Shown: positions 18,887 to 36,694 of the stretch, one piece after another
How positions within the stretch are numbered: the first letter of the stretch is position 1
How the letters are laid out: each line of letters begins with the position of its first letter
Assembly (NCBI RefSeq): GCF_949628215.1
Contig: NC_134311.1
Span: 13,888,582-13,952,581, forward strand
Direction: 5' to 3'
Source: Phalacrocorax aristotelis
Lineage: Eukaryota > Chordata > Aves > Suliformes > Phalacrocoracidae
Length of the DNA: 64,000 bases
Notes under the pieces: model-generated
Told to the model about the DNA's origin: nothing
The model's input: only the letters and a program-made list of their open reading frames with translations
The model's database searches: none
Made by a program: the position numbers and the translations under genes

Positions 18887-19515
18887 TGTTATCCCGAAAA
18901 GCAGCGTTGTTCTCCCGGTGTGCAAAACACCAAACTACACACAGAGCAAAGGTATTTTATTCAAGCAATTTCTGTGAAAAGATTGGTGCTAGGTGGTAGC
19001 CCACAAAGCTAGCACACTGCACTGAGAAACTAAAAGGCATTTGTATAGTTAAATGTGTCGGTCACAGCTATTATTCACACACCTCAGCTAATAATTGGTT
19101 AATTTCTTTCTCCCTTCAATGTAAAGGTACAGCTCACTTTTTAACTTACTATGCATGCTCAGGGAAGAAGGGACTCACTAGAGGGGGGGCAGTTCCTGGC
19201 CTATGGGCCTGATTTTTAGTGTTATAATGAGGATAGTGCCCCTAATGTGCACTTTGTTTTAGTACTTATCTGTATCCCAATGACTTGTTCTCCTTGACTA
19301 TACGCTTTATCACCCCGTTCGCAGCAGCTTCTGAGACGGGATGTTTGCTTTGATCAGTCTCTCAGCTCTCCTCAAGGATATAGTCGTAATACAAGTGCTT
19401 CTCTATCTCTCCGTCTCTGTCTCTGGCCCTCAACTTCTGTTTTGCCAGGCTCACATAGTTCATTGTTATGTCTTTAGTGGACAGTTCCAGAAATTCCATT
19501 TTCTAAGGGGTATCA
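18887..19515 (-). repeat. 3' LTR of the ERV1 provirus
   Basis: 629 bp, minus strand. Sense start is TGATACCCCTTAGAAAATGG and sense end is CTTTTCGGGATAACA. An AATAAA (sense) lies within TTGAATAAAATACC near 18955-18961, a likely poly(A) signal at the R/U5 side. Compared with the other LTR, the part from about 19169 to 19515 is nearly identical (4 differences by eye in about 347 bp). The part from 18887 to about 19160 differs at roughly a tenth of positions and has a 21-bp insertion/deletion near 19058-19085. Confidence 0.93.
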
Positions 19516-19529
19516 GTTTTCCCCCCTTT
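19516..19529 (-). other. Polypurine tract of the provirus
   Basis: On the sense strand AAAGGGGGGAAAAC directly precedes the LTR start TGATACC. This is the expected position and composition of the plus-strand primer site, and it fixes both the orientation and the LTR edge. Confidence 0.9.
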
Positions 19530-20467
19530 GAGACTGTGAGAACATTTTTTTTCGTGAATCTCATAAGCCTCATTCCTTTTCGGAAGTAGTATATAATTTC
19601 TTACTGTCATACTCATAATACATCCAACTAATATACAATCATAATTTTAACAAGTTTTGCATCCATCCAGTAAGGGAGAATCCACGTTTATGTAATATTT
19701 TGTTTAACTCTTCAATTTTTCTTGAAGCCCTCAGGTTATGGCTTGACTTGCCACTTGTTTATCCAGCCCAGTTAATCATCTAGGTTTCCAGTAATGACTG
19801 GGACATGAACACAGTGATCCTTATCACTTAAATTAGTATATGCAAAAACTGCACGACCATGTAATAACCTCCGAATGAAATTACTTTACCCACTGTTATT
19901 GAATTATTAGTTATTATATTTTCAAAGGTTAGATTTAAATCTCGAGCTAAGATTCCCCCATCTGGGGTTTGTAATAAATTTTAGTAGTGCAGTTAAACTG
20001 CTGCTATTGTGGATTTTCCCGAATGACTGGATAAATTGTAAGATTACATTTCCTTTACAGACCACTACTAAATATATAACTATCATCTTGGCATAATTAG
20101 ATTAACAATATTTTCTGAGTTCTATAATTATCCCTATGGAAAATAGGCACTTAATCTCTATGTCGACAAGTCCTGTTTCTTAAGCACAGTTCATCAAGGG
20201 TCTCTGATCAAGACTTCCAAGTTCATATACAGACTGTGTCTCCTGGCTGGAATGAGTGGACTGGTGTGTCCAAGGGAAGTTAATTCCTTTGGTACCTGTA
20301 TAGTGAAGACAAAATCTTCAAATATTCCTTGATGGCTGTCCTTTATATGCATTTGGTCTCCCTTCTTCTTTAAGAGGTTTGTGGGATATGCCCCTTCTCA
20401 AAGGGGCTTACTCCCTCCTTAACCTTAGGGGCTATTTGAATTTGCAAAAGAACTAAAGGTAAGGCTT
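19530..20467 (-). pseudogene. Remnant between integrase and 3' LTR (env position)
   Basis: About 940 bp in the place where env would be, roughly half the length of a gammaretroviral env. The sense translation is full of stops. One stretch around 19640-19740 reads ASRKIEELNKILHKRGFSLTG before a stop, which could be a decayed transmembrane-subunit segment, but the match is weak. The stretch may be a truncated env or unrelated sequence. Confidence 0.35.
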
Positions 20468-20790
20468 CTATCCAGTTAAGGTGTGCTTCCTGGCAAAGTT
20501 TAGAGACTTGCCTCTTGAGGGCTTTTCTACTTTTCCACTAGACTGAGGCCTCCAGGGGGTGTGTAATTCACACTTAATCTGTAAAAACTTGGAAATTCCC
20601 TGCACTCCTTCTGAAATAAAATGAGGCCCAATGTTAGAGGATATTTCCTCTGGAATACCAAATCTAGGAATCATTTCTTTCAATAAAATCCTAATCACTT
20701 CTCTGTCTTTGTTGATGCAACAAGAGAAAGCCTCTGGCCAACCAGGGGAAGTGTCTACTAATACCAGTGAATATTTTTACTGATTCCATT
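20468..20790 (-). pseudogene. Retroviral integrase fragment
   Basis: The sense-strand pieces contain the first catalytic region (LVLVDTSPGWPEAF, about 20735-20785) and, in the frame at 20468-20698, IPRFGIPEEISSNIGPHFIS followed by HTPWRPQSSGKVEKPS. These are hallmarks of gammaretrovirus-type integrase cores. The first catalytic Asp survives, but the second position, normally Asp in the SDNG-type motif, reads Asn-Ile (SSNIGP). The C-terminal domain is missing. The protein is non-functional. Confidence 0.88.
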
Positions 20791-20827
20791 TAGGTAATTC
20801 TGCAACCTCCTTTGGTTGAAGAACTGC

Positions 20828-21350
20828 TTACAGAAGTCTCACAACTTCTGTTCTATATTTTAATGGAGCCCCTTGTGAGTTTAATAATCCTCTTTCTTTC
20901 CAAATTGCCCTGTGTGTAGGTACTACCCCAAATGCATATTTGGGATCAGTATATATACTAACTCCTTTCTCATGACTCAGTGCTAAGGCTCGAGTCAGTG
21001 CCATCAATTCCATACTTTGAGCAGATGTGTTACCAGACAGTGCTCTGGTTTCCAATGCTTGGATATTTGTTACAAACACGTATCTAGCTCTGCGTCTTCC
21101 TTCTAATAGGTAGGTGCTGTCATCAGTAAAAAGCTCCACTTCTGCATCAGGCAGAAGCTTGTCCCATAAATCTAATTTGTTGTAATACACTTGTTTAAAG
21201 GTGGTTAGACAATCATGCTTTAATTCATCAGACTCAGAAACTTGGAGTAAAGTGGTAGGATTTAAGGTGGAGGTTAGGGAAAGTGTGACATCATTTTGTT
21301 CTTGTAGTACAGCCTAATATCTCTCTAGTCTATTTGGGGAAATCCAGTGG
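20828..21350 (-). pseudogene. RT connection and RNase H fragment
   Basis: The open frame at 20828-21190 contains ELFTDDSTYLLEGRRRARYV, SAQSMELMALTRALALS, and IYTDPKYAFGVVPTHRAIWK. This is RNase H order, with acidic residues at TDDS, E in the MELMAL helix, and TDPKYAF. Upstream, a continuing frame from about 21350 reads through a stop into LNPTTLLQVSESDELKHDCL, the RT connection domain. The RT palm and fingers that should precede it are absent, so an internal deletion is inferred. Confidence 0.85.
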
Positions 21351-21594
21351 TGCCCCTTGTTTTCAAGGAGAGACGATACAGCATAAGGTACAAACAAAGT
21401 AATCAGTTGACACAGTGGCAGTTTTCAAGATTCCTCAATTTAGGCTACAGCCACCACCTCTGCCCTCAAGCAGGAGGGCCAGCCTTTACTAACCTCATCT
21501 AATCATTTGGAAACATTCCAGCTCCCCAGCTTTTGTGTCAGCACTCCCCACGCCACTTGTTTTCTTTCATGTATGTATAATTGAAAGGGTTTTC

Positions 21595-21789
21595 TCAAAT
21601 GCAGGAGTCCCAAGGCAGGGCTTCCATTAATTTTGTCTTACATTCTAACTGACATTCCATTAATTGTGCATGCTCTGAAAAAAAAATTATCACCAGTTCT
21701 AATCCCTTCCAGGCTTCCAGTTTAATAGGGTATTGTTTCTTTCTTACTAGCCTGGGTTCTTGTTTTAGTTCCATCTTTTTCAGAGTCAC
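21595..21789 (-). pseudogene. Reverse-transcriptase N-terminal fragment
   Basis: The sense frame contains VRKKQYPIKLEAWKGLELVI followed by [20 protein letters not shown]. This corresponds to the start of gammaretroviral RT, where the QYP-type motif precedes the fingers. It stops before any palm sequence, and only about 250 bp separates it from the connection domain, so most of RT is deleted. Confidence 0.8.
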
Positions 21790-21798
21790 ATTCTTGGC

Positions 21799-22397
21799 TC
21801 ATTCCGGCATTCCTGATGACCACACCATGGGTATGGTTGCATCTAATACCTTGTCTGGAATATTTCCTTCTGCAGGATCCTTCTCAGTTAGCAGGCATAT
21901 CTGTGCTTTCCATGCATTCTGTGGAGGAATATGTAACCAGACAAAATCTTCGGAGGTTAATTGTGCATTTAATTTACAGAGTAAATCCTGTCCAAGTAAT
22001 GGTAAGGGACATTCTGGTATATACAGAAATTCATGTGTTAATTTAGGATCCCCAGTTGTGAGCTCCATAGTCTGTAAAAACAGCCTAAAGGTTATTTTTT
22101 GCTGTAGCACAAACAACGCTTACTTTAGTCTTACTTAAAGATCCCTTGCAGCTATTTATCACAGAACGGGTGGCCCCATTCTGTCAAAAGATCAATTGTC
22201 AAAATTGTCAAAAATAAATCAATCAAAAAATCAATTGTTTTATTCCCCAGCTTAATTGGAACAAGAGGATCGGCTGGGGAAGCTTTAATAGATTCTTCCA
22301 GTCCCCTTCGGTCTAACCCAGTCTCTGCCATTACCCCAACAGCTTCCTCGGCTTCTTTCTCCTGGTCATTAAAAAGATGTGACCTTCCTGTTTGCAA
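21799..22397 (-). pseudogene. Retroviral nucleocapsid end and protease remnant
   Basis: Sense pieces in different frames. Near 22385-22415 there is a half zinc knuckle (LLNCKQEGHIF). Next comes a protease N-terminal region at 22152-22300 (VPIKLGNKTIDFLID), in which the D-S/T-G catalytic triplet is replaced by unrelated residues. Then the C-terminal protease region at 21799-22116 contains EFLYIPECPLPLLGQDLLCK. The frame breaks between pieces and the catalytic motif is lost. Confidence 0.78.
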
Positions 22398-22453
22398 TTT
22401 AATAAGTCAGAAGTAGTAACTGGTTTATGTACACACACTGGTCTTCCTTCAGG

Positions 22454-23010
22454 TCACATGGCCTGCCTAAAAGTAGCCTGGATTCTGGGCCTCTGTCCCC
22501 TCATCCTACTGGCCATAGGACTAGTAATCTCATCTCCCTCCTCACTGAAGGCACTTGATCCTAATTGCTTTGGAGGGGCTACCAATAGCCAAGCTTCTTC
22601 TTCCATATCCTCTGACTTGCTTGTTTTCTTACAGTTAGTACAGCACAAACTCTCTTCCTTTTTTCCTTTTTTCTCAGTTAAAGAATATATTTTATTCTGG
22701 TATTTCAAATCCACCAAACCACTTCCTTTCTATTATCCCAGTCGCCTTTTAACATAAAGAACAAGTCAACGTATAGCATTTTGCCCCGTTTTTCATTTTT
22801 CTGACAAAACAACATTAATTGCAGTATAGAATTATATTTCAAAGACCCATTTTCAGGCCATTTCTCAGCCTCTTCTAATTGATATAGTGGCCACAATTGA
22901 TTGAAATGCCATTTTAATTTATCCTTAGTCAGGGGGTCCCCTCCAAATTTACTCCAATTCTTTAGGATGCATCCTAAGGGAGAGCAAGGAGGAGTGCTCG
23001 TGGAAGCCAT
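22454..23010 (-). pseudogene. Retroviral gag remnant (matrix and following region)
   Basis: The sense frame from an ATG at 23010 contains SPLGCILKNWSKFGGDPLTK, EKWPENGSLKYNSILQLMLF and a MLYVDLFFMLKG segment. This is the N-terminal matrix domain of a gammaretrovirus-type Gag. The adjoining frame at 22454-22717 carries CCTNCKKTSKSEDMEEEAWL and a proline-poor linker. The roughly 250-residue capsid expected before the nucleocapsid is missing, because the zinc-knuckle remnant follows almost at once. The start residue is not the usual Met-Gly, so a myristoylation signal is not evident. Confidence 0.85.
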
Positions 23011-23040
23011 TTAAGTACCGAAAACCAAACCAATGTTTCA

Positions 23041-23300
23041 TATACAACAAATTCCAAAATTCCCCATGCAAAATGAGGGATCTTCTCCCTACATTAGGAA
23101 TTCCAGATACAAATTCCAAAATTCCCCGTGCAAAACAAGGGATCTTTTCCCTACATTAGGAATTAGATATACAAAATGAGGCATCTTCTCCCTATATTAG
23201 GAATGAGACATACAAAACAAGGGATTTTCTCCCTGAGTTACAAACTGCCCATGCAAACAAGAGATTTTCTCCTCACGTTAGGAATTCCAAATGCAAATAC
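23041..23300 (-). repeat. Tandem repeat in the proviral leader
   Basis: Five imperfect copies of a unit with core GGGATCTTCTCCCTACATTA (plus-strand text) occur near 23077, 23139, 23180, 23221 and 23260. Four spacings are about 41 bp, and the first is about 62 bp because of an extra duplicated ATTCCAAAATTCCCC block. The array lies between the PBS and the gag start, in the untranslated leader. Confidence 0.85.
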
Positions 23301-23575
23301 AATGTGTAGAAACAAAACAACACTGCAATGCATCTTACGCGGAGCAAATACCAAAACAATTCCAGCTGCTTCCTTAAGATCTCGCTCTTAGCCACTTTTC
23401 CCCTTAAAACACCTCCTTTGAATAGTGTTGCACCTGTGTGTCGCTCACTGCTGGACTGCAGGAGAGAAGAGTTGATGGAGTCCCCCGATCAACAGGTCGG
23501 TGCATGCTGGAGTCCATTTGGTCTGCTTCTCCTCATCGGGTACGGTGAGACGATCCAGGCAAAGCTGTCAGTGCA

Positions 23576-23593
23576 GTCCCACCAGAGTCACCA
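23576..23593 (-). promoter_or_regulatory. Primer-binding-site-like sequence
   Basis: On the sense strand, four bases after the end of the 5' LTR, the text is TGGTGACTCTGGTGGGAC. It starts with the TGG expected opposite a tRNA CCA end and has the usual 18-base length. The first nine bases would pair with a tRNA ending GAGTCACCA, but I cannot assign the tRNA from the full 18 bases. Confidence 0.6.
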
Positions 23594-23597
23594 GAAT

Positions 23598-25448
23598 TGT
23601 TATCATGAAAAGCGGTTTTGTTTGCCCAGTGTGCAAAATGCCAAAGTACACATAGAGCAGAGGTATTTTATTCAATCAATTTTCGTGAAAAGATTGGTGC
23701 TAGGTGGTAGCCCACAAAACTAGCACACTGCACTGAGAAACTACAAGGCATTTATATAGTTAAATGTGTACGCTCAGCTAATAATTGGTTAATTTCTTTC
23801 TCACTTCAATGTAAAGGTACAGCTCACTTTTTAATTTACCACACATGGTCAGGGAGTAGAATCATAGAATCATTAAGGTTGAGAAAGATCTCTAGGATCA
23901 TCAAGTCCAACCATTAACTCAACACTACCATGCTTCCTAAACCATGCCCTGGAGTGCTGCCTCCATACGTCTCTTAAATACCTCCAGGGATGGTGACTCC
24001 ACTACGTCTCAGGGCAGCCTGTTCCAATGCCTGACCACTCTTTCAGTAAAGAAGTTTTTCCTAATATCCAATCTAAACTTCCCCTGGTGCATCTTGAAGC
24101 CGTTTCCTCTCATACTATCACTAGTAACTTGGGAGAAGAGACCAACACCGACCTTGCCACAGCCCCCTTTCAGGTAATTGTAGACAGCAGTAAGGTCTCC
24201 CCTCAGCATCCTCTTCTCCAGACTAAACAACCCCCAGTCCCTCAGCCGCTCCTTATAAGACTTATTCCAAGACCCTTCACCAGCTTCGTTGCCCTCCTCT
24301 GGACGCACTCCAGCTACTCTATACCCTTGTAGTGAGGGGCCCAAAACTGAACACAGAATTCAAGGCTTGGCCTCACTAGTGCCAATTACAGGGGCACAAT
24401 CACTGCCCTGCTCCTGCTGGCCACACTATTGCTACAAGCCAGGGTGCTGTTGGCCTTCTTGGCCACCTGGGCACACTGCTGGCTCATGTTCAGCCAGCTG
24501 TCAACCAGCACCTCCAGATCCTTCTCCACCAGGCAGCTCTCCAGCCACTCTGCCCCAAACCTGTAGCATCGCATGGGGTTGTTGTGACCCAAGTGAAGGA
24601 CCTGGCACTTGGCCTTGTTGAACCTCTTACAGCTGACCTCGGCCCATTGATCCAGCCTGTCCAGGTCCCTCTGCAAAGCCTTCCTACCCTCCAGCAGATC
24701 AACACTCCCACCCAACTTGGTGTCATCTGCAAACTTACTGAGGGTGCACCAGATCCCCTCATCCAGGTAATTGATACAGATATTAAACAAGACTGCCCCA
24801 ACACTGAGCCCTGGGGAATCCTGCTCATGACTGGCCACCAACTGGATTTAGCTCCGTTCACCACAACGCTCTGGCCTCGGCCATCCAGCGGGTGTTTTAC
24901 CCAGCAAAAAGTACACCTGTCTAAGCTATGAGCCACCAGCTTCTCTAGGAGGATGCTGTGGGAAACAGTAGCAAAGGTTTTACTTTGATAAGTAAAACCA
25001 GGTAGATAACACCTATAGCCTTTCCCTCATCCATCAGGTGGGTCACTCTGTCATAGAAGGAGGTCAGGTTAGTCAGGCAGGACCTGCCTTTCCTGAACCC
25101 AAGGGACTTACTAGAGGGGGGGCAGTTCCTGGCCTATGGGCCTGATTTTTAGTATTATAATGAGGATAGTGCCCCTAATGTGCACTTTGTTTTAGTACTT
25201 ATCTGTATCCCAATGACTTGTTCTCCTTGACTATACGCTTTATCACCCCGTTCGCAGCGGCTTCTGAGACGGGATGTTTGCTTTGATCAGTCTTTCAGCT
25301 CTCCTCAAGGATATAGTCGTAATACAAGTGCTTCTCTATCTCTCCGTCTCTGTCTCTGGCCCTCAACTTCTGTTTTGCCAGGCTCACATAGTTCATTGTT
25401 ATGTCTTTAGTGGACAGTTCCAGAAATTCCATTTTCTAAGGGGTATCA
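23598..25448 (-). repeat. 5' LTR of the ERV1 provirus, split by a CR1
   Basis: The left piece is 23598-23856 and the right piece 25101-25448, together matching the 3' LTR end to end. The sense start at 25448 is TGATACCCCTTAGAAAATGG. The interruption is a CR1 LINE. The right piece is almost identical to the 3' LTR, while the left piece is strongly diverged; see findings. Confidence 0.92.
23857..25100 (-). mobile_element. CR1 LINE inserted in the 5' LTR
   Basis: A 1.24-kb minus-strand CR1, 5'-truncated, with the 3' tail CTATGATTCTA at 23857-23870. The translation contains FADDTKLGG (about 24722-24733), [20 protein letters not shown]-like text and HWNRLP near the 3' end (24009-24344). It starts, in sense, at the RKGRSCLTNLTSFYDR-type region near 25090. 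Frames are shifted between pieces. It lies inside an LTR, so it inserted after the provirus. I could not define its target duplication with confidence. Confidence 0.93.
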
Positions 25449-25452
25449 ACCC

Positions 25453-26880
25453 TGCCCTGCTGACACTCTTCTCCAGGGTGATGACCCAGCAGCAGGGGCT
25501 GGGTGCTCAGACAAACAAGTTCAGCCACTGCTGCCAAGGTTTCCTTGCTCTTGCAGGAAATGCCAGCAGTCTGATGCAACACTCCCAGAGAAGTAAGCAC
25601 AGCTCCTTCTGCTGAGGGACATTGGGCCCACCTCGCTGAGGGCCCAACAGAGCTGAGGGAGACACCACCTGCAGCTCCCAGCACTGCCCACCCTGCCACC
25701 AAGCACAAGAGAGAGGTTGTTTGGGTGGGAAGGAGGGTGTGAGGGCTTAGCTCTCTCCCTCTGCTGCCTGCTGAGGGCTGTGACTCGCTCTGAAGGAAGG
25801 GCAGCAGGGGTTCAGCTGATGGGGAGGAAAGATGGCTACTCCTCAGGTTCTTTTTTAACTACCTTCACTGCCAGAGGGGACCAGCAGAGGACGCTGCATG
25901 GTGTCAGCCCACAAGAAGCACATGAGGTTACCAAGCAGCCCCTCAGCAACCAGGGCCACCAGCAAGCTGCCTCCCCCAGGTGGGAACCTGCCAGGGAGAG
26001 GCAAGGAGCACAGAGGCTTCCGGCCACCAGCCAGAAGCCCTGCCCCTTCACTGGCATCTTCTGTTGTGATTGGCTGCCAGGACCTGCCACACCTTGTAGT
26101 TTACCCAGTGGTACAGGAAGTCTCTCCCCTTTAGGTACTGGTAGCTGCCATTTTGTTTCAGCCACCATTTTATGGCAGGGATCTGCCATTGCCTTGCTCT
26201 GCCATTGGCTGGTTGCTGTCTATCCACATGTCCTTTGGTCTCTGTCTGATTGGCTTCCTGCTTCCTTTGGACCAGGAAATGCTCAGATATGGAAATCTAT
26301 ACATTCATTTAACATGCTTGCAGTGTGGAAGTGGGTACATGCAGAAGTGTACAAATATGTATAGGTATATTTTTTTTATTTATACATAGATACACTGGAT
26401 ACATCTACATTTATATACTTATGTATTGTTATATGTATATACGTATATGCATTTATAAAGTTACAGAAATTAAATACATATGCAAGAATAGGTATGAAGT
26501 AGCTAAAACATCTTTTACTAACAGCTAATGGGACAAATAATAAAGTTTTAATATGAATAAAAAATAATGAAGTGAAAACAAAAGGCAGGTTTGGCTCCCA
26601 CACACATATGTGCTGTGTGGCTGCAGAAGAAACACCATCATGTCTGGGGGCACCAGGAGAGGCAGCACAGACCCCTCCAAGGAGCCAGCCAATGGGGCCC
26701 TGTGAATTAGTATGAGCACTGGGGTGTTGCAGAGCTCTTCAGCTCAGACCATGGTTATTTCAGGGCTGGAGGGAGTAGGGGGCAGGATGGTGGTCATAAT
26801 GGAGCTGGTGGGGCTTTTACTTCTGGGGCCTTGGCTTACAAGGCAGGAACTCAGGAAGAACTGGTACAACAAACTGCTAA
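25453..26880. other. Unassigned DNA between provirus and polymerase fossil
   Basis: GC-richer at first, with a 215-codon plus-strand frame at 25717-26364 that has no recognisable domain and overlaps other frames of similar quality. From about 26355 to 26470 it is AT-rich and built of TATA/TACATA-like words. No splice sites, promoter or repeat family could be supported. Confidence 0.4.
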
Positions 26881-28240
26881 TTAGGAAAGCTAAATGAATT
26901 TTACATCGTTCAAGCCTCTTGTTGGCAAGGGGTTACGGGGACAAAAGGGCCCCTAACTGCAGACTGGCCCACATGGTGGGCCAGTGAATGTCTCACACTG
27001 GGGAAGAAGGTTACCTCAGGAGTTTATATATGCATCACTTTCCTATCCAAGAGGGAAAAGAGTTGGGGGATCTTTAAGCCAAATGATAGTCTTAGATATG
27101 CCAAGAGCAGTTTCCTCCTTTTACACAGTGAACACTATTATGGTGTTAAAGATGTCAGGAAGGTATCTGGAGTAAGAAACCTTTGTGGACTTCGTCATAC
27201 ACCGTATAACTATGTCCAAAGCTGTAAATATTATTTACAGCTCTGTTAACTGTGCAGTTAACTTAGGGACAAGGATAAGGTGCTCTGGCTGCAGGCTGTT
27301 GTGCAGGTCTTGGGAGTTTTTACAGAGGTAAAATGTCCTGGCTATTAAAAACTAAATTGATTGTTTGGCTATGATTTTCTGTGAGACATGTAAGGTCTGT
27401 AAAAAAACATCATGAATGTAAAGGCTGGAACTGTGCAACAAGCTAGGAACAGACCTGTAACGTAAAAAGCACCAGTGACCGAAAACCATGCCCATGATTA
27501 AAATCCCAGGACTGGGACAGGGTTATATTGTCTATGATATGGAACATATGCAGGAAACTGGGACACATTTCCCAAACTACATTTTTACATGGAGATAGCC
27601 CTGGATGACCCTTCAGCTGAAGAGGGGGCAGAAAAGAAAACTGAAAGAAAATGGAAGTTTAAAGGGGACACATCTCATGCACTTTAGTCACCTGGTTTTT
27701 GACACAGAGTTTGGGGCTATGCTTTCCTAGCACACAATGCCTACTGATGGCCATTGGTGGCTCCTTTATTATTAGTCAGTTTCTAAAGGAAAGAATGGGT
27801 GTCAATCACCCAAGGTGGTAAACTCGTATGTATACGTGTACGCAGCCTGAGTATATGTTTCATAGAGCCTTAAAGGGTTTTACTCACAAAGCCAAGCAGT
27901 CTCCCCCACACTGTGTATCGGGAGCTGCAAAGGTTACTTACCCCGTTTTTTTCAAAACTGCCAAAAAGGACCACCAAAGAGATTGTGTTTCAACATATCT
28001 GTGAGCAAATGAGTGGGTTGCTATGACAAAAGGAGCACGGGAGCTTGCAGAGTGCTTAGCCAAGGCCAAACTGCCAACACTGTTGGTCCCAAGAGATGTG
28101 TTTTTTGGCAGCAGCATTTGTCTGTATTACAAAGCAGCCCTCGACGAAAAACTATATTGCTGTCATTTTACTAGCCTCTATCCCTTCATCAACAAAACAA
28201 AACAATACCCTTCTGGGCATCCAAAGTTATTTTTTAGAAT
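26881..28240 (+). pseudogene. Fossil protein-primed family-B DNA polymerase (Maverick/Polinton- or adintovirus-type)
   Basis: A decayed polymerase read on the plus strand in several frames, with its parts in the order expected for this family. (1) 26881-27249 is a 122-codon open stretch without an ATG, including SFLLLHSEHYYGVKDVRKVS, then Cys-containing LCGLRHTPYNYVQSC, then a stop. (2) 27366-27420 is a Cys-rich piece, FCETCKVCKK. (3) 27488-27598 contains IVYDMEHMQETGTHFPNYIF, an exonuclease-I-type D-x-E motif (Asp 27536, Glu 27542). (4) 27724-28026 contains FLAHNAY and GGKLVCIRVRSLSICFIEP, the exonuclease-II-type region, broken by stops at 27745, 27784 and 27871. (5) 28023-28240 contains VPRDVFFG and HFTSLYPFINKTKQYPSGHP, the palm motif A, with His in place of the catalytic Asp at 28164-28166. 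The later motifs (K-x-x-x-N-S and D-T-D) are not found. It is a pseudogene of an old insertion; no terminal repeats were seen. Confidence 0.82.
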
Positions 28241-28249
28241 TTTAACACA

Positions 28250-31200
28250 AGCTACAGAATATACCTCCAACACCCACACCATACACCACAGGGACACCTT
28301 GAACACCAGGGAGACCACTGCCAGGATGGGCTCTATAACAATCCCCATTCATGGATGAATCAAAACCTTTCTCAGATCTTTCTTTTGTTCTAGACACTCT
28401 GCTGTGGTCTCTGTTTTCAGGGAGGCACAGATTCTTTAATTTTAAACACACCTCTATATAGGGTTTTCCAAACCCTTACAGGGTTTGAAGGGTTTGCATC
28501 CATCTGTTTGGCTCTGATCACTGCAGAAGTTATGACTGTCATTCTTTATAAATGCAGAGAACAGGCTAATGCAGCAAAAAGTGTTGTGTGCTGTAAAAAT
28601 ATCTCTACCTCTTGGGTTTGAATGTCCTGTTAAACACCCTGTGACAGAGGCTTATATTTCATTATTTGCCAGAAAAATGGTGAACATTATACTGCTTTAA
28701 CAGCTTATTTAAAGGTTAGTTTAAAAATTCTTTTGTTGGGTTGGTCTGTAATTTCTGAGGCTAACGCTGCCAGATAAAACTTGTTGTAAAAGCCCTGAGT
28801 ATTTCAGAACCTGTTTTGCCTTGTACATCTATGGCCCAGGCTTGCTTGGATAATATATCTGTCACCATTAAGTTGTACTTAAGATAAGTTAAGTTGTTGT
28901 GTTTGGAAGACTGTTGCATGTCCACCAAGTCTGCCTGTCACCGTACATCTACCTCTGCCACTATCACTCTTATTCTTTTAAACTGTTTCCTTGCTGCCTT
29001 GTGTAAGCTGGAGGAGTCCTGGTTTGTAAGCCAGGCTTCTCTTCAAATCAGCAATTTACTTTTTAGCAGCTTCAGAAAGGGCATTTATACCCCCCTCAGC
29101 TTCCCACCTCCTCAGGAGCATCATAAACGTCTTTTGATAGAAGTGATAGTGTAGACACATTCACTGACATGCAACTACTATGCACATGTACAAAAGATAA
29201 CATTGGACAATAACACAAATACAGAGAAAGTTTATTAACAGGGTATGAGGGGAGTTGGTTGTCAGTCATGGTTCTTCAGGATTTTTCCTTTTTTTGCCAT
29301 TGAACACCACTGTCACTTCCATACCCATTCTTTTTCTTTGGCTGCTGCTGGCTTGGACAGGAGCACCAGAAAGTCACAGCATGATTCTGACTTCTCCATG
29401 CTCAAACTACCAGTTTTTTTAAATGTTCATTAGGGTCATTGACCTTATAGGAAGCACATATAGCACCAGCCTGCATCCTGTCATGTCTTACAGGATGCTG
29501 TAAGATCCACCAGAACGACCAGCAAAGGGAGCTCCCTGCTGCCATCTGCTCTCTCTGTGCCATACCTTGATATGTAATTTGTGGTTCACAGACCAGCTGG
29601 TTCTTTGGGTTGGTGTGGGCTTTTTTGGGAATCCTGTAGGGTCCTACTAGTCAATCACAGTGGACCAGATGAAGTGCAGGACTTCTGGGACAAAGCCTGG
29701 CTGCTGCGTGGTCCTTCTGTTTCTCCCTGTAGTGTATGCAGGGGAGAAGGCATCCCCGGCCCCCGCCCCATGCAAAAACAGCCAGGATCCCCAACCTCCC
29801 ATCCAGTAAATTACTACATACAAAATTGTATTTGCCATTTACTAGGGAGGAATTAAAAGGGCAATACTTGAATGCTTAATCAGCATTCATGTTTTCCTTT
29901 CCAATCTGGTTACAGCCGCCACTATAGACAGACATGTGGAAGGGTTCCAGGCAGGTCCCAGTCCCCGTCTGCACAATCGTACCAAAATCATGGGTACAGC
30001 CACCAGCTGCAAGAGGAAGGGCATGAACGAATATCTCCAACTGGCTACCCAGGGCTGCCAGGCTGTTTCCCAGGTAAAGATACTGTGTGAGAAACACCAA
30101 GTTACCCTGGCCTCATCTTTTGGCTCCTCCACAAATGGCCAGCCCCACCAGCTGTGGCAGAGCATGGTCCCCAAGCCCCTGCTTGCCATGGCACAGGGGC
30201 AGTAAGTTGCTTACTAAAAAGCGAACAGGAATGAGACTTAAGGCCGAGCAGCCTGAAGTCTCCCATGGCTGCAGGACCACTTTTTCATTTGTGTGTAAGT
30301 GCTGTGCCCAAACACTGTCGCAGCAAGAGCTGTCTCCTCCCCAAGAGAAGGTGAGCTGAGAGTCAAGGTCAAGCCCCTCACAGGCAGTGCCCTCACTAAT
30401 TGGGCACAGCTGGGTGCCCCAGTCCCAGAGAAGGCAAGTGATGAACCAGGTCCAGAATCCATCGAGGGAGTACAAGAGATGGGGCTGGAGATTGTACTGG
30501 AGACATCCAGTACGAGCTGGAACATCCAGACGAGGGGTTCCTGCAGGAGGCAATATGCCTACAGCATAGGTCTGGGCTACCTTCAGGAGACAGGGCTGTG
30601 GACTGAAGGCCCACACCAGAACTGAAATGGCGCTCACACAGGGGAGGCGAGAGATCAGGGGGGTGTGTGTGACGGCCCAGGTAAGGCTGCTTAGGTCTCT
30701 GAATCCTGTTTTGTGCAGCTTTCCTTCCCAGCAAGGGGTGTCATCACACCTTGCAGAGACCTAGGTTTAAAGGTGACTTGCTAGGGTTTTAAAGGGTCAC
30801 AGATCCTCTAGCCAAGCAAAGTATAGCTTTTTGCTCCAAATCACTTCATTAAAAAAATCCCATCCAATCCCAAAAATTGTATAATCCAGCCTCCCATTCA
30901 TGACAGTTAAGCTAACACATTCAGATAGACCACCACTTGCCAAGAATTTTATTTCTTTACAACACTGCCACCTCTTGTTCATCTGCAGATTTTATTTTGC
31001 ACAGTTCCAACCTGTGGTGGACCCACCACCAGCACAAAGTCATAGGGCCCCTACTAGTTCTGTTAAACTGAAACCTTACAAGGAATAGCAACTGAGTGGA
31101 TACAACATCATGTACTTCTGTACAAGTTACAAACAGGTAGAAAGCCTGAAAACATCAACAGACGTGTTATGTCAGTGTTGACTGGTATGTCCACTGTTTC

Positions 31201-33034
31201 CTCTGGTAACTCACAGAATGAGGTACTAAAAGAAAGGGGGGAAAAGCCCCAAACCAACAAAAAACCCAGAACCCAGTAGCAAAACCCACCCCAGTGGAAA
31301 ATGTCATGGGATATTTTCCAGGGAGTGAAATGTACTCTGTCCATGCAATGTTATCTCCAAACTTGGAGATTTCTCCTGATGTGAATCTTACTTGTCCTCT
31401 AGCACTTGCCCCATCTTCTACCTCAGAGGCTGCCACCCAAAGGCATATATTTTCCTGATGCTTGTTAATGAAGAGCAGCACCTGTTCTGTCTCCACCAGG
31501 GACACTAAGTCTGTGAATTGTGTGGAAACCTCCTGGAAAAGACTTGGCTGCAGATGAGCAGTGTAGGTTGATCATCTTGTCTTTGAGTTTCTGACTAGGT
31601 GGTTTCTGGGAAAAGGTTCAGCACGATCTAGAAGAAGGTGGACCAGAAGAAGGTGGATCTCACTCTGTGCTAGCATGTACAACATGGGGAAAGCCCACAG
31701 AATGCAGGGAGGAGACAAAAAGCACAATCCAGCCAGGCCACTTTGTCCAGCTGCTTGCCATTCAACTAGTTCATTTTGTTGGGGTTAGACTGGTGACAGA
31801 TATGGGTTTTCTGCATGGGTTCCTTGATTTCTAGCACTATACTTCATTTTTATTTCCTGTAGGCATATTTAGAGATCAGTAATAATTAACACCACCTTGC
31901 AATACCACTTTTTTGCTATGCTTTTTCATTATGTCTCTTTGTGTTTCAGTCCTGGTGTCTACAGTAGTTGAGAAAGGGTGTAATGCATTTCACCAGATGC
32001 AGGGGCCTGGAAGCTGCCAGAAGTCCCAGCTGATGAGGAGCTGAAGCCCATAGCAATGATCCCCTGGGCAGTGGGGCCAGCAGAAGCTGCTGGTAAACCC
32101 ACAGTGCAGAAGGAAGGGACCTGCCAGCCAGTCTGTCAGTATTTTCCTCTTCACATCCCTTTCCAGCTGGAAGATCCAATCAATAAGAAAATTACTGTCT
32201 TGAAGTGAAGTTGCCAGCAGGCAATCAGTTTTACCATGGCTGAGTCCTAATGGGCTGACACTTGAGGCACCTGGGTTTTTTTACTTCATACTCAACAAAC
32301 ACAGTATTTCTGAACCATAGAATTGAGCCCAACTTCCTTAAGTCCCCTCTGCTTTCTAAACCCAAGATGAACCCTCAAAAGCTGTGGTGCTTGTTTTGGG
32401 CGCTCAGCTAAGTGGTGTGTTGGGACCACCTTGGAATTGTTAGTATGTTCCCTGGCCCCCTCACTGATGTTGACTAAGACAGCCTCACTTTCTGTTCTCA
32501 TAGGTGCTCCAATACAGCCACAGGGTTCCATTAGCTTTGCTCCAGACTCTAGAGTTGACAGAGGCACAGGATAGTCCAAGAAGGGTTTATTCCTGAAAAG
32601 TCTTTCCACGACAGGTCAGAACTATGGCAATAGGCATTTAGTCTCTCCACAGGTTGCTCTGGGAGACCATCCCTCTTTCTGCTGTTTGCAAAGCTGTCTT
32701 TCTGTTTTGCCCAGCAATCTGTTCAGTAATGTGTCCTTAATGTTGATCTCATCATTGACCTAGTACTCTGCATGAATGTCCACAGAGAACTGGGTAGGAG
32801 CTGCTCTGCCCCCTTTCTCTTTCTTTTGATGGGTAAAAGAGTGATATCTGCAGAACCCAGACCCTTTGCAAAGAAGATGTGAAGCTCACACCGTTACAAG
32901 GCCACATGAAGTTTCTGTTGAGCTGCATGGCCCTCAGCTGTGTGGTAGGACCCAACTCTACCACTCAGGCCAAGAGAGCCTGTCCTGGTGTGTGGGGGTA
33001 TTCTTCCTGGGGTGTTTCCCTGTGTTGAACTGCA
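28250..33034. other. Unassigned DNA right of the polymerase fossil
   Basis: 4.8 kb with no gene I can support. Between 28460 and 28830 three plus-strand frames carry protein-like pieces in succession (CLALITAEVMTVILYKCREQ, KHPVTEAYISLFARKMVNII, LTAYLKVSLKILLLGWSVIS) separated by frame changes, possibly a second decayed gene. Frames at 30113-30637 (174 codons, minus) and 31167-31505 (112 codons, minus) have no recognisable domain. A short direct duplication (AGAAGGTGGA) lies near 31630-31660. Confidence 0.4.
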
Positions 33035-36124: not shown

Positions 36125-36232
36125 TTACAGGCACTTGAGGAGGAAGGAATTGCACGAAGTCCCCCGGGGGCAGTCACAGAGCTTCCCGATGCGGGCCCCC
36201 TTCCTCACGGCGCACTGCTCCCCGGCGTCGCA
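36125..36232 (-). CDS. CARTPT: CARTPT exon 3 (coding part)
   Basis: Starts after a CCGCTGCCCGCAG acceptor in phase 0 and encodes [20 protein letters not shown] and the rest of the Cys-rich domain, ending in LLKCL and TAA. It has 35 residues and matches the family almost perfectly. Confidence 0.97.
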
Positions 36233-36652
36233 CTGCGGGCAGCGGCAGGCGGTGAGGGGGGCGCCCCGTCCCGCCCCGCCCCGGCCCGCCCCGTCCCGTC
36301 CCGCCACTCACCATGGGCACCTGCCCGAACTTCTTCTCGTAGTGCGGGACCCTCTTGCTCTTCAGCTTCTCCAGCACCTCCTGCAGCGCCTCGATCTGCC
36401 GAGAGACCCCACAGCCCCCGTCAGGCCGCGCCCGCCCGGGCGGCGCCGCCCGCCCCGACCCCGGTCCCGGCCCCCCCGCCCCACCAGTTCCTTCTCTCGG
36501 GAGGCGCTGCCGCCGGCGAGAGGCTCCAGGTCGCGGGCGCGGCGGGTCGGGGTCGGCCCCGGCCCCTGGCCCTGCCCCGGCCCCTGCCCGCGGGCGCCCA
36601 GCAGCAGCGCGGCCGCCACGGCGCAGAGCGCCAGCGCCCGGCAGCTCTCCAT
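36125..36652 (-). CDS. CARTPT: CART prepropeptide (cocaine- and amphetamine-regulated transcript)
   Basis: A secreted neuropeptide precursor acting in appetite, reward and stress circuits in vertebrates (family knowledge). Three exons, joined 36652-36485, 36395-36312 and 36232-36125, give 119 residues plus stop; mammalian forms are about 116. Residues 1 to about 22 are a signal peptide with a Leu/Ala core ([12 protein letters not shown]). Residues 23-50 form a Gly/Gln/Pro-rich, then acidic, linker. [19 protein letters not shown] leads to the dibasic KR cleavage site, and the mature peptide starts [13 protein letters not shown]. Exon 3 holds all six conserved Cys (residues 85, 91, 103, 105, 111, 118) and ends FLLKCL, the family C-terminus. 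The start is the first ATG after the TATA box. Two changes in the mature peptide (His and Phe where mammals have Ile and Tyr) and the odd linker are noted in findings. The neighbour MCCC2 is on the same strand, as in human. Confidence 0.96.
36312..36395 (-). CDS. CARTPT: CARTPT exon 2
   Basis: 84 bases in phase 0 at both ends, between acceptor TCTCTCGGCAG and donor ATG|GTGAGT. It encodes [20 protein letters not shown] and on to GQVPM, including the prohormone-convertase site. Introns 1 (89 bp) and 2 (79 bp) are tiny and GC-rich. Confidence 0.96.
36485..36652 (-). CDS. CARTPT: CARTPT exon 1 (coding part)
   Basis: 56 codons from ATG to CTG|GTGGGG donor, phase 0. It encodes the signal peptide and the N-terminal propeptide; the last residues SREKEL align with the conserved ASHEKEL-type end. 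The middle (about residues 22-48) is low-complexity, with [12 protein letters not shown] followed by TPTRRARD. Confidence 0.9.
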
Positions 36653-36688
36653 GGTGCTGCCGCCGCCGCCCGCCGCCGCCGCCGCCGC

Positions 36689-36694
36689 TTTATA
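36689..36694 (-). promoter_or_regulatory. CARTPT: CARTPT TATA box
   Basis: Sense TATAAA in CGCTATAAAGCGGCGG, 36 bases upstream of the ATG. If transcription starts 25-30 bases downstream, the 5' UTR is only about ten bases. Confidence 0.8.

Follow-up and report, generated by a model that had tools for sequence, protein, structure and literature searches.

The window analyzed here, 64,000 nucleotides of the Phalacrocorax aristotelis genome (contig NC_134311.1), contains the broken remains of a putative family-B DNA polymerase (PolB) gene, and it raises the questions of where this gene came from, how much of its original surroundings persists and whether its arrival can be dated. An earlier note on this DNA read the remains as a decayed Maverick/Polinton-like polymerase in a bird genome, next to CARTPT. 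The assignment to a bird fits the CARTPT match (PF06373) and the reverse transcriptase pieces (PF00078) of the window, which we take to be CR1 by name; the named neighbor is indeed present, with PF06373 above the cut-off about 6.7 kb from the element. The best explanation, and in our judgment very probably the right one, is that positions 26480-29643 represent a truncated, long-dead Maverick/Polinton-type element of a kind already known from birds (Table 1); evidence against it includes the window's own match to PF03175, which is single and below the cut-off, and the failure of the window pieces to match any integrase family.

Table 1. Features of the element and its neighborhood (positions in the window)
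Position	Strand	Feature	Evidence
26480..26603	.	Possible left end of element, or flank common to another copy; uncertain	66% over 125 bp, E 5e-12, to C36:45770414-45770538 (L052)
26782..27015	+	Stretch just left of polB	67% over 243 bp, E 1e-23, to copy L043 527-764
27022..27967	+	N-terminal and exonuclease regions of decayed PolB	64-75% to seven other genomic copies
27963..28248	+	Palm region of decayed PolB, including motif A	PF03175 E 0.0043, 16.4 bits, below cut-off; 74% to L001
28164..28166	+	Motif A codon CAT (His); Asp in three paralogues	Codon reading against L001, L043, L045
28248..28356	-	Scrap of gene, possibly PW	76% to C35:13467524-13467631; tblastn 50% over 38 aa, E 1.5e-7
28360..29397	-	Remains of an integrase-like gene with adjacent sequence	69% over 1064 bp to L051, E 6e-146
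29449..29643	.	Right terminal inverted repeat, inner part	Inverted and same-orientation matches to ends of other copies
36306..36395	-	CARTPT coding sequence (context, outside element)	PF06373 34.9 bits, above cut-off, residues 99-128 of ORF 36174-36689

All plus-strand PolB pieces described before were found in the translated window, in the order given: HSEHYYGVKDV (27124-27156), a Cys/His-rich stretch (about 27380-27440, with a clearer counterpart in the paralogue L040), the exonuclease I piece YDMEHMQETGTHFPNY (27533-27580), which contains YDMEHMQETG, AHNAY (27730-27744) and the motif A piece TSLYPFINKTKQYPSGHP (28170-28223). The replacement of the catalytic Asp of motif A by His was likewise recovered, and the reading frame is broken as had been reported, with a stop directly after AHNAY and, in the eight-copy alignment of 27022-27967, six deletions and two insertions private to the window, all of them frame-breaking. 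A degenerate pattern built on the motif A letters of the window has a single occurrence there, and none of 100 dinucleotide shuffles contains it. The stop-to-stop piece 28005-28355 matches positions 222-271 of the Pfam profile DNA_pol_B_2 (PF03175), below its cut-off of 25.8 bits; nine other window pieces gave no relevant match in the Pfam search, one of them having two unrelated weak matches.

When the whole genome was scanned with PF03175 (two candidates scored), one match over the cut-off was obtained, an open piece of copy L001 at C35:13465132-13465350 (28.8 bits), and none of the 14 control genomes gave a match; two other PolB-side pieces of L001 had no Pfam match. The segment 27022-28355 of the window aligns with C35:13453750-13467631 in four blocks of 70-76% DNA identity (27022-27739, 74%; 27764-27967, 70%; 27963-28248, 74%; 28248-28355, 76%; best E 1e-137), and the PolB pieces are collinear with their paralogues at 64-77% DNA identity. 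Among pieces of further copies, two match the exonuclease part of PF03175 weakly (E 0.015, positions 10-80; E 0.063, positions 19-90) and one matches the motif A part (E 0.024), with no PolB match for five other paralogue pieces in that search. A family-B DNA polymerase appears to be present, the window piece lying below the cut-off and its homologous paralogue piece above it.

The end that the earlier note had placed at 28240 proved too short, as homology to other genomic copies continues to 29643. The segment 28360-29397, which is repeated in the genome (at least 30 stretches including itself, with the best 25 candidates scored), gives on the minus strand an integrase reading interrupted by stops; we assume its identity from recognizable motifs. 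The window's integrase pieces matched no integrase family in Pfam or NCBIfam. One of the four pieces of the related copy L051 matches rve (E 0.0082, below the cut-off), and, with composition correction switched off, one window piece aligns with an ERV-like reading of L006 (36% over 36 aa, E 0.002); in a reversed-sequence control this piece had no match and other pieces went down to E 0.016. The support for the integrase name can be considered weak to moderate. If this reading holds, the polB (27022-28248) and integrase-like modules lie on opposite strands and are both directed towards the center.

The right end of the element was recognized by comparison among copies. The stretch 29449-29643 matches, in inverted orientation, sequences upstream of polB (left ends) in the copies at C36:45.77 Mb and C35:12.43 Mb and, in the same orientation, sequences beyond the integrase (right ends) in the copies at C35:11.51 Mb and C36:51.60 Mb; for a fifth match, at C35:6347527, the end was not assigned. 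As judged from these alignments, the matches are terminal inverted repeats of the copy family, of which the window retains the right one. In three other copies the inverted repeats reach farther outward, so that the window copy is cut or diverged at its right end, at 29643; for the same reason, a candidate terminal ACT-type motif at 29643-29648 was dropped. The window yielded no left inverted repeat (best E 0.32) and no target-site duplication, the ends of its copy not being intact, and an inverted-repeat scan of 25449-32500 returned 13 short pairs, none of which was accepted as the element's repeat. An inverted match between 25992-26084 and 29640-29729 (E 0.001) has an order unlike that in other copies and was not used. 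The leftmost block of Table 1 may belong to the element or to a shared flank; its L052 match lies outside the inverted-repeat stretch of the C36:45.77 Mb copy.

Comparison with other copies also indicates what has been lost. About 0.6 kb that separates two PolB blocks in copies L043 and L048 is missing from the window, where these blocks adjoin. The stretch 28248-28355 matches the C35 copy past its ATPase-like region, not in the rest of PolB, so the second half of PolB, after motif A, and what came after it have been lost; the scrap itself is possibly PW, a name taken from motif and position. At C35:11.51 Mb, about 1.1 kb lies between sequences that are only 17 bases apart in the window (28342 and 28360). 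No packaging ATPase, capsid genes or protease were found in the window. The PW, capsid and ATPase names that we use for parts of other copies are assumed from motifs: L001 has a Walker-A-like piece after PolB, the best Pfam matches of which are unrelated and below the cut-off, and none of the three L003 pieces read by eye as capsid has a Pfam match (one, tried against PDB, gave an unrelated match with E 1.1).

The Maverick/Polinton-like reading of the polymerase is thus backed by the opposite-strand integrase-like module, by inverted terminal sequence common to the copies and by the existence of gene-richer copies. The ancestral element would have been a linear, virus-like DNA molecule bounded by terminal inverted repeats, with a family-B polymerase and a module headed by an integrase on opposite strands. 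Its own integrase would most likely have carried it into the germ line of one of this bird's ancestors. The inner genes were then removed by deletion, as the comparison with other copies shows, and the remainder has drifted without selection at the protein level, as the equal private change at the three codon positions shows for the copies as a set. The element is presumably without function now. The related copies scattered in the genome look as if they had been inserted over a short span.

Adintoviruses have the same PolB together with a retrovirus-like integrase, and nothing found here separates them from Mavericks. An adintovirus-type integrated virus, which would not be a Maverick in the strict sense although it would work in the same way (integrase and protein-primed PolB), nevertheless seems quite improbable, because bird and reptile elements with this layout are named Mavericks in print (PMC8097293, in excerpt). 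A PolB relic from another source, such as a mitochondrial-type linear plasmid, an adenovirus or another PolB virus, accompanied by integrase-like DNA that is an unrelated repeat, would be in line with the inclusion of organellar and viral polymerases in PF03175 and with the lack of family matches for the integrase pieces of the window; yet sequence at the right end of the element in the window recurs at the left ends of two other copies, upstream of polB, which implies that the PolB side and the integrase side share inverted terminal DNA and makes such a source very improbable indeed.

The earlier note held elements of the Maverick/Polinton type to be rare in birds; in this genome they are not, with at least 35 merged loci containing related DNA (57 non-self matches plus the window, merged at 70 kb): eight on C36 including the window, six each on C35, C1 and C2, three each on C3 and C6, and one each on C4, C5 and C26. 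This count is a lower bound, given that the best 25 candidates were taken per search, is biased towards window-like copies, includes many short matches and leaves out additional places that match the terminal repeat. C35, which is repeat-dense and has an inverted duplicate, and C36, which carries CARTPT and mir-31 (chicken Z genes, as we understand), are on these grounds probably the W and Z chromosomes, respectively. By length, 0.86 of the loci would be expected on C35 and 2.16 on C36 (binomial 0.0002 and 0.001; the query is one of the eight on C36), excesses that are biased by slower decay on the W and by the use of a Z-linked query. The avian W is reported to be a refuge for endogenous retroviruses in a text (PMC8310711) in which the words Maverick and Polinton do not occur.

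Several other features of these chromosomes were observed. L003 and L021-L022 (C35:13393632-13413631 and 13466851-13476850) form an inverted duplicate, with identical-score matches to the same window stretches. The copy at C35:13.45 Mb was considered as the W counterpart of the window copy, which found no support, since what the 253 kb around it have in common with the window is limited to repeats, a single retrovirus family and the element. An endogenous retrovirus with integrase and RNase H pieces (18887-25448, minus strand) lies immediately to the left of the element, and a CR1-like insertion (23858-25101) splits one of its LTRs. The LTR parts 19168-19515 and 25101-25448 are 98.9% alike and the parts 18887-19165 and 23598-23855 only 83% alike, a difference suggestive of local gene conversion. 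Within the retrovirus region, 23047-23297 is occupied by imperfect tandem repeats (40-62 bp), and a mir-31 microRNA precursor (RF00661, 78.8 bits) is located at 603-682, some 36 kb away from CARTPT.

The divergence analysis is based on an alignment of the exonuclease stretch from eight copies. Between the window and the seven others there are 0.237-0.325 differences per site, and internal branches make up 4.6% of the tree length, so that the tree is nearly a star; the data reject a strict star (p-AU 0.005; the program warned of too few replicates), and the best-supported group joins the C35 copies at 12.4 and 13.25 Mb (bootstrap 77). Tip lengths are 0.204 for the window, 0.088, 0.104 and 0.170 for the C35 copies, 0.169 and 0.236 for the other C36 copies, 0.188 for C4 and 0.222 for C3. 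Copy-private changes are evenly spread over codon positions 1, 2 and 3 (36/336, 38/299 and 34/251; p = 0.59), in a small set of 300 columns picked from the window's open pieces, whereas columns shared between copies lean to position 3 (20, 18, 29). Pairwise differences with the window are highest at third positions in all seven comparisons, which points to part of the divergence being older than the insertion. This is the pattern that would be expected of dead copies of a once-constrained gene.

The near-star tree would say nothing of an infection wave if the copies were later duplications of one dead element and not separate insertions. The C35 inverted duplicate and the bootstrap-supported pair on the same chromosome are compatible with this possibility, but the compared copies differ in their deletion points, third positions are favored among the informative columns, which would be expected of a lineage that was still coding, and no non-repeat flank is common to the window and the surroundings of the C35 copy mentioned above, so that duplication appears unlikely. 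Very improbable is co-option of the remnant by the host, for instance as a regulatory element near CARTPT: the gene is close and some human Polinton relics are strongly conserved in mammals (PMC9004415, in excerpt), but the window-private changes (5/44, 3/37 and 6/34 by codon position, small counts) and the eight private frame-breaking indels give no sign of protein constraint, at the coding level. The more specific scenario under which a single short wave of Maverick endogenization, in a Cretaceous or earlier bird lineage, left dozens of fossils with near-synchronous neutral clocks, the best copies residing on a slowly mutating W-like chromosome, is tentative, and we lean against it, given that the third-position excess makes it less likely.

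The suggestion that the insertion is datable holds in part: the date comes solely from neutral divergence between copies, which gives a rough bracket. Z-linked DNA mutates faster, and part of the branch may predate the insertion; any age derived from it would thus err to the old side. With bird substitution rates of 1.23, 1.91 and 2.21 x 10^-9 per site per year (PMC2911116, in excerpt), taken in place of the host's own, the window branch of 0.176-0.243 (60 bootstraps, star tree) would correspond to roughly 143-198, 92-127 and 80-110 My, respectively.

Searches for relatives outside the genome gave no confirmed result. In IMG/VR, protein-guided scans that started from one PolB piece and one integrase piece yielded 31 and 33 pattern-matching stretches and no confirmed relatives; pattern scans yielded 0, 10 and 2 stretches, none of these 12 reading by eye as integrase or PolB. 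Three pieces run against PDB had unrelated weak matches or none, PHROGs and NCBIfam gave nothing relevant, and the protein database gave no candidate for the integrase piece.

The closest parallels come from published elements, here cited from excerpts. Mavericks are 12.7-24.6 kb in size, with repeats of 46-1447 bp, and consist of two opposed, center-directed modules, one with polB, ATPase, PM and PZ and the other with integrase, minor capsid, PW, major capsid and protease (PMC8097293). The defective bird Mavericks (Barreat and Katzourakis, 2021, PMC8097293) are degraded and have polB and integrase on opposed strands and terminal inverted repeats, as does the window element, of which some 3.2 kb remains, in agreement as to strands and order but without ATPase, capsid and protease, with one repeat end and with no target-site duplication seen. 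In the chicken, Polinton remnants that are conserved in turkey have been described on chromosomes 2 and Z, with PolB best conserved on Z (Guizard et al., 2016, PMC4992247). The chicken Z Polinton and the window share an interrupted polymerase B in a bird; the integrase-like part, the terminal repeat and the at least 35 merged loci are described here. Hence the kind of element is already known, and, as the window chromosome carries CARTPT and mir-31, the window locus may be the same as that of the chicken Z remnant.

Active Mavericks have been inferred in the ancestor of living birds (PMC8097293), and Mavericks in birds are said to be degraded without exception (PMC9683012). The Maverick fossils of placentals, on human chromosomes 7 and 8, are, like the window element, degraded, neutrally evolving and in possession of polB; they are at least about 102 My old, as dated by orthology across placentals (PMC9683012), whereas the window element is dated by divergence between copies of one genome. 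The single window locus is of modest value by itself. The multi-copy family, with its near-star tree and neutral tips, offers a second, independent means of dating the last activity of Mavericks from a single genome, and, as it is spread over sex chromosomes and autosomes, it could serve to compare their rates of decay. If the tentative single-wave scenario were true, one neognath genome would preserve a legible record of the final phase of Maverick activity in birds.
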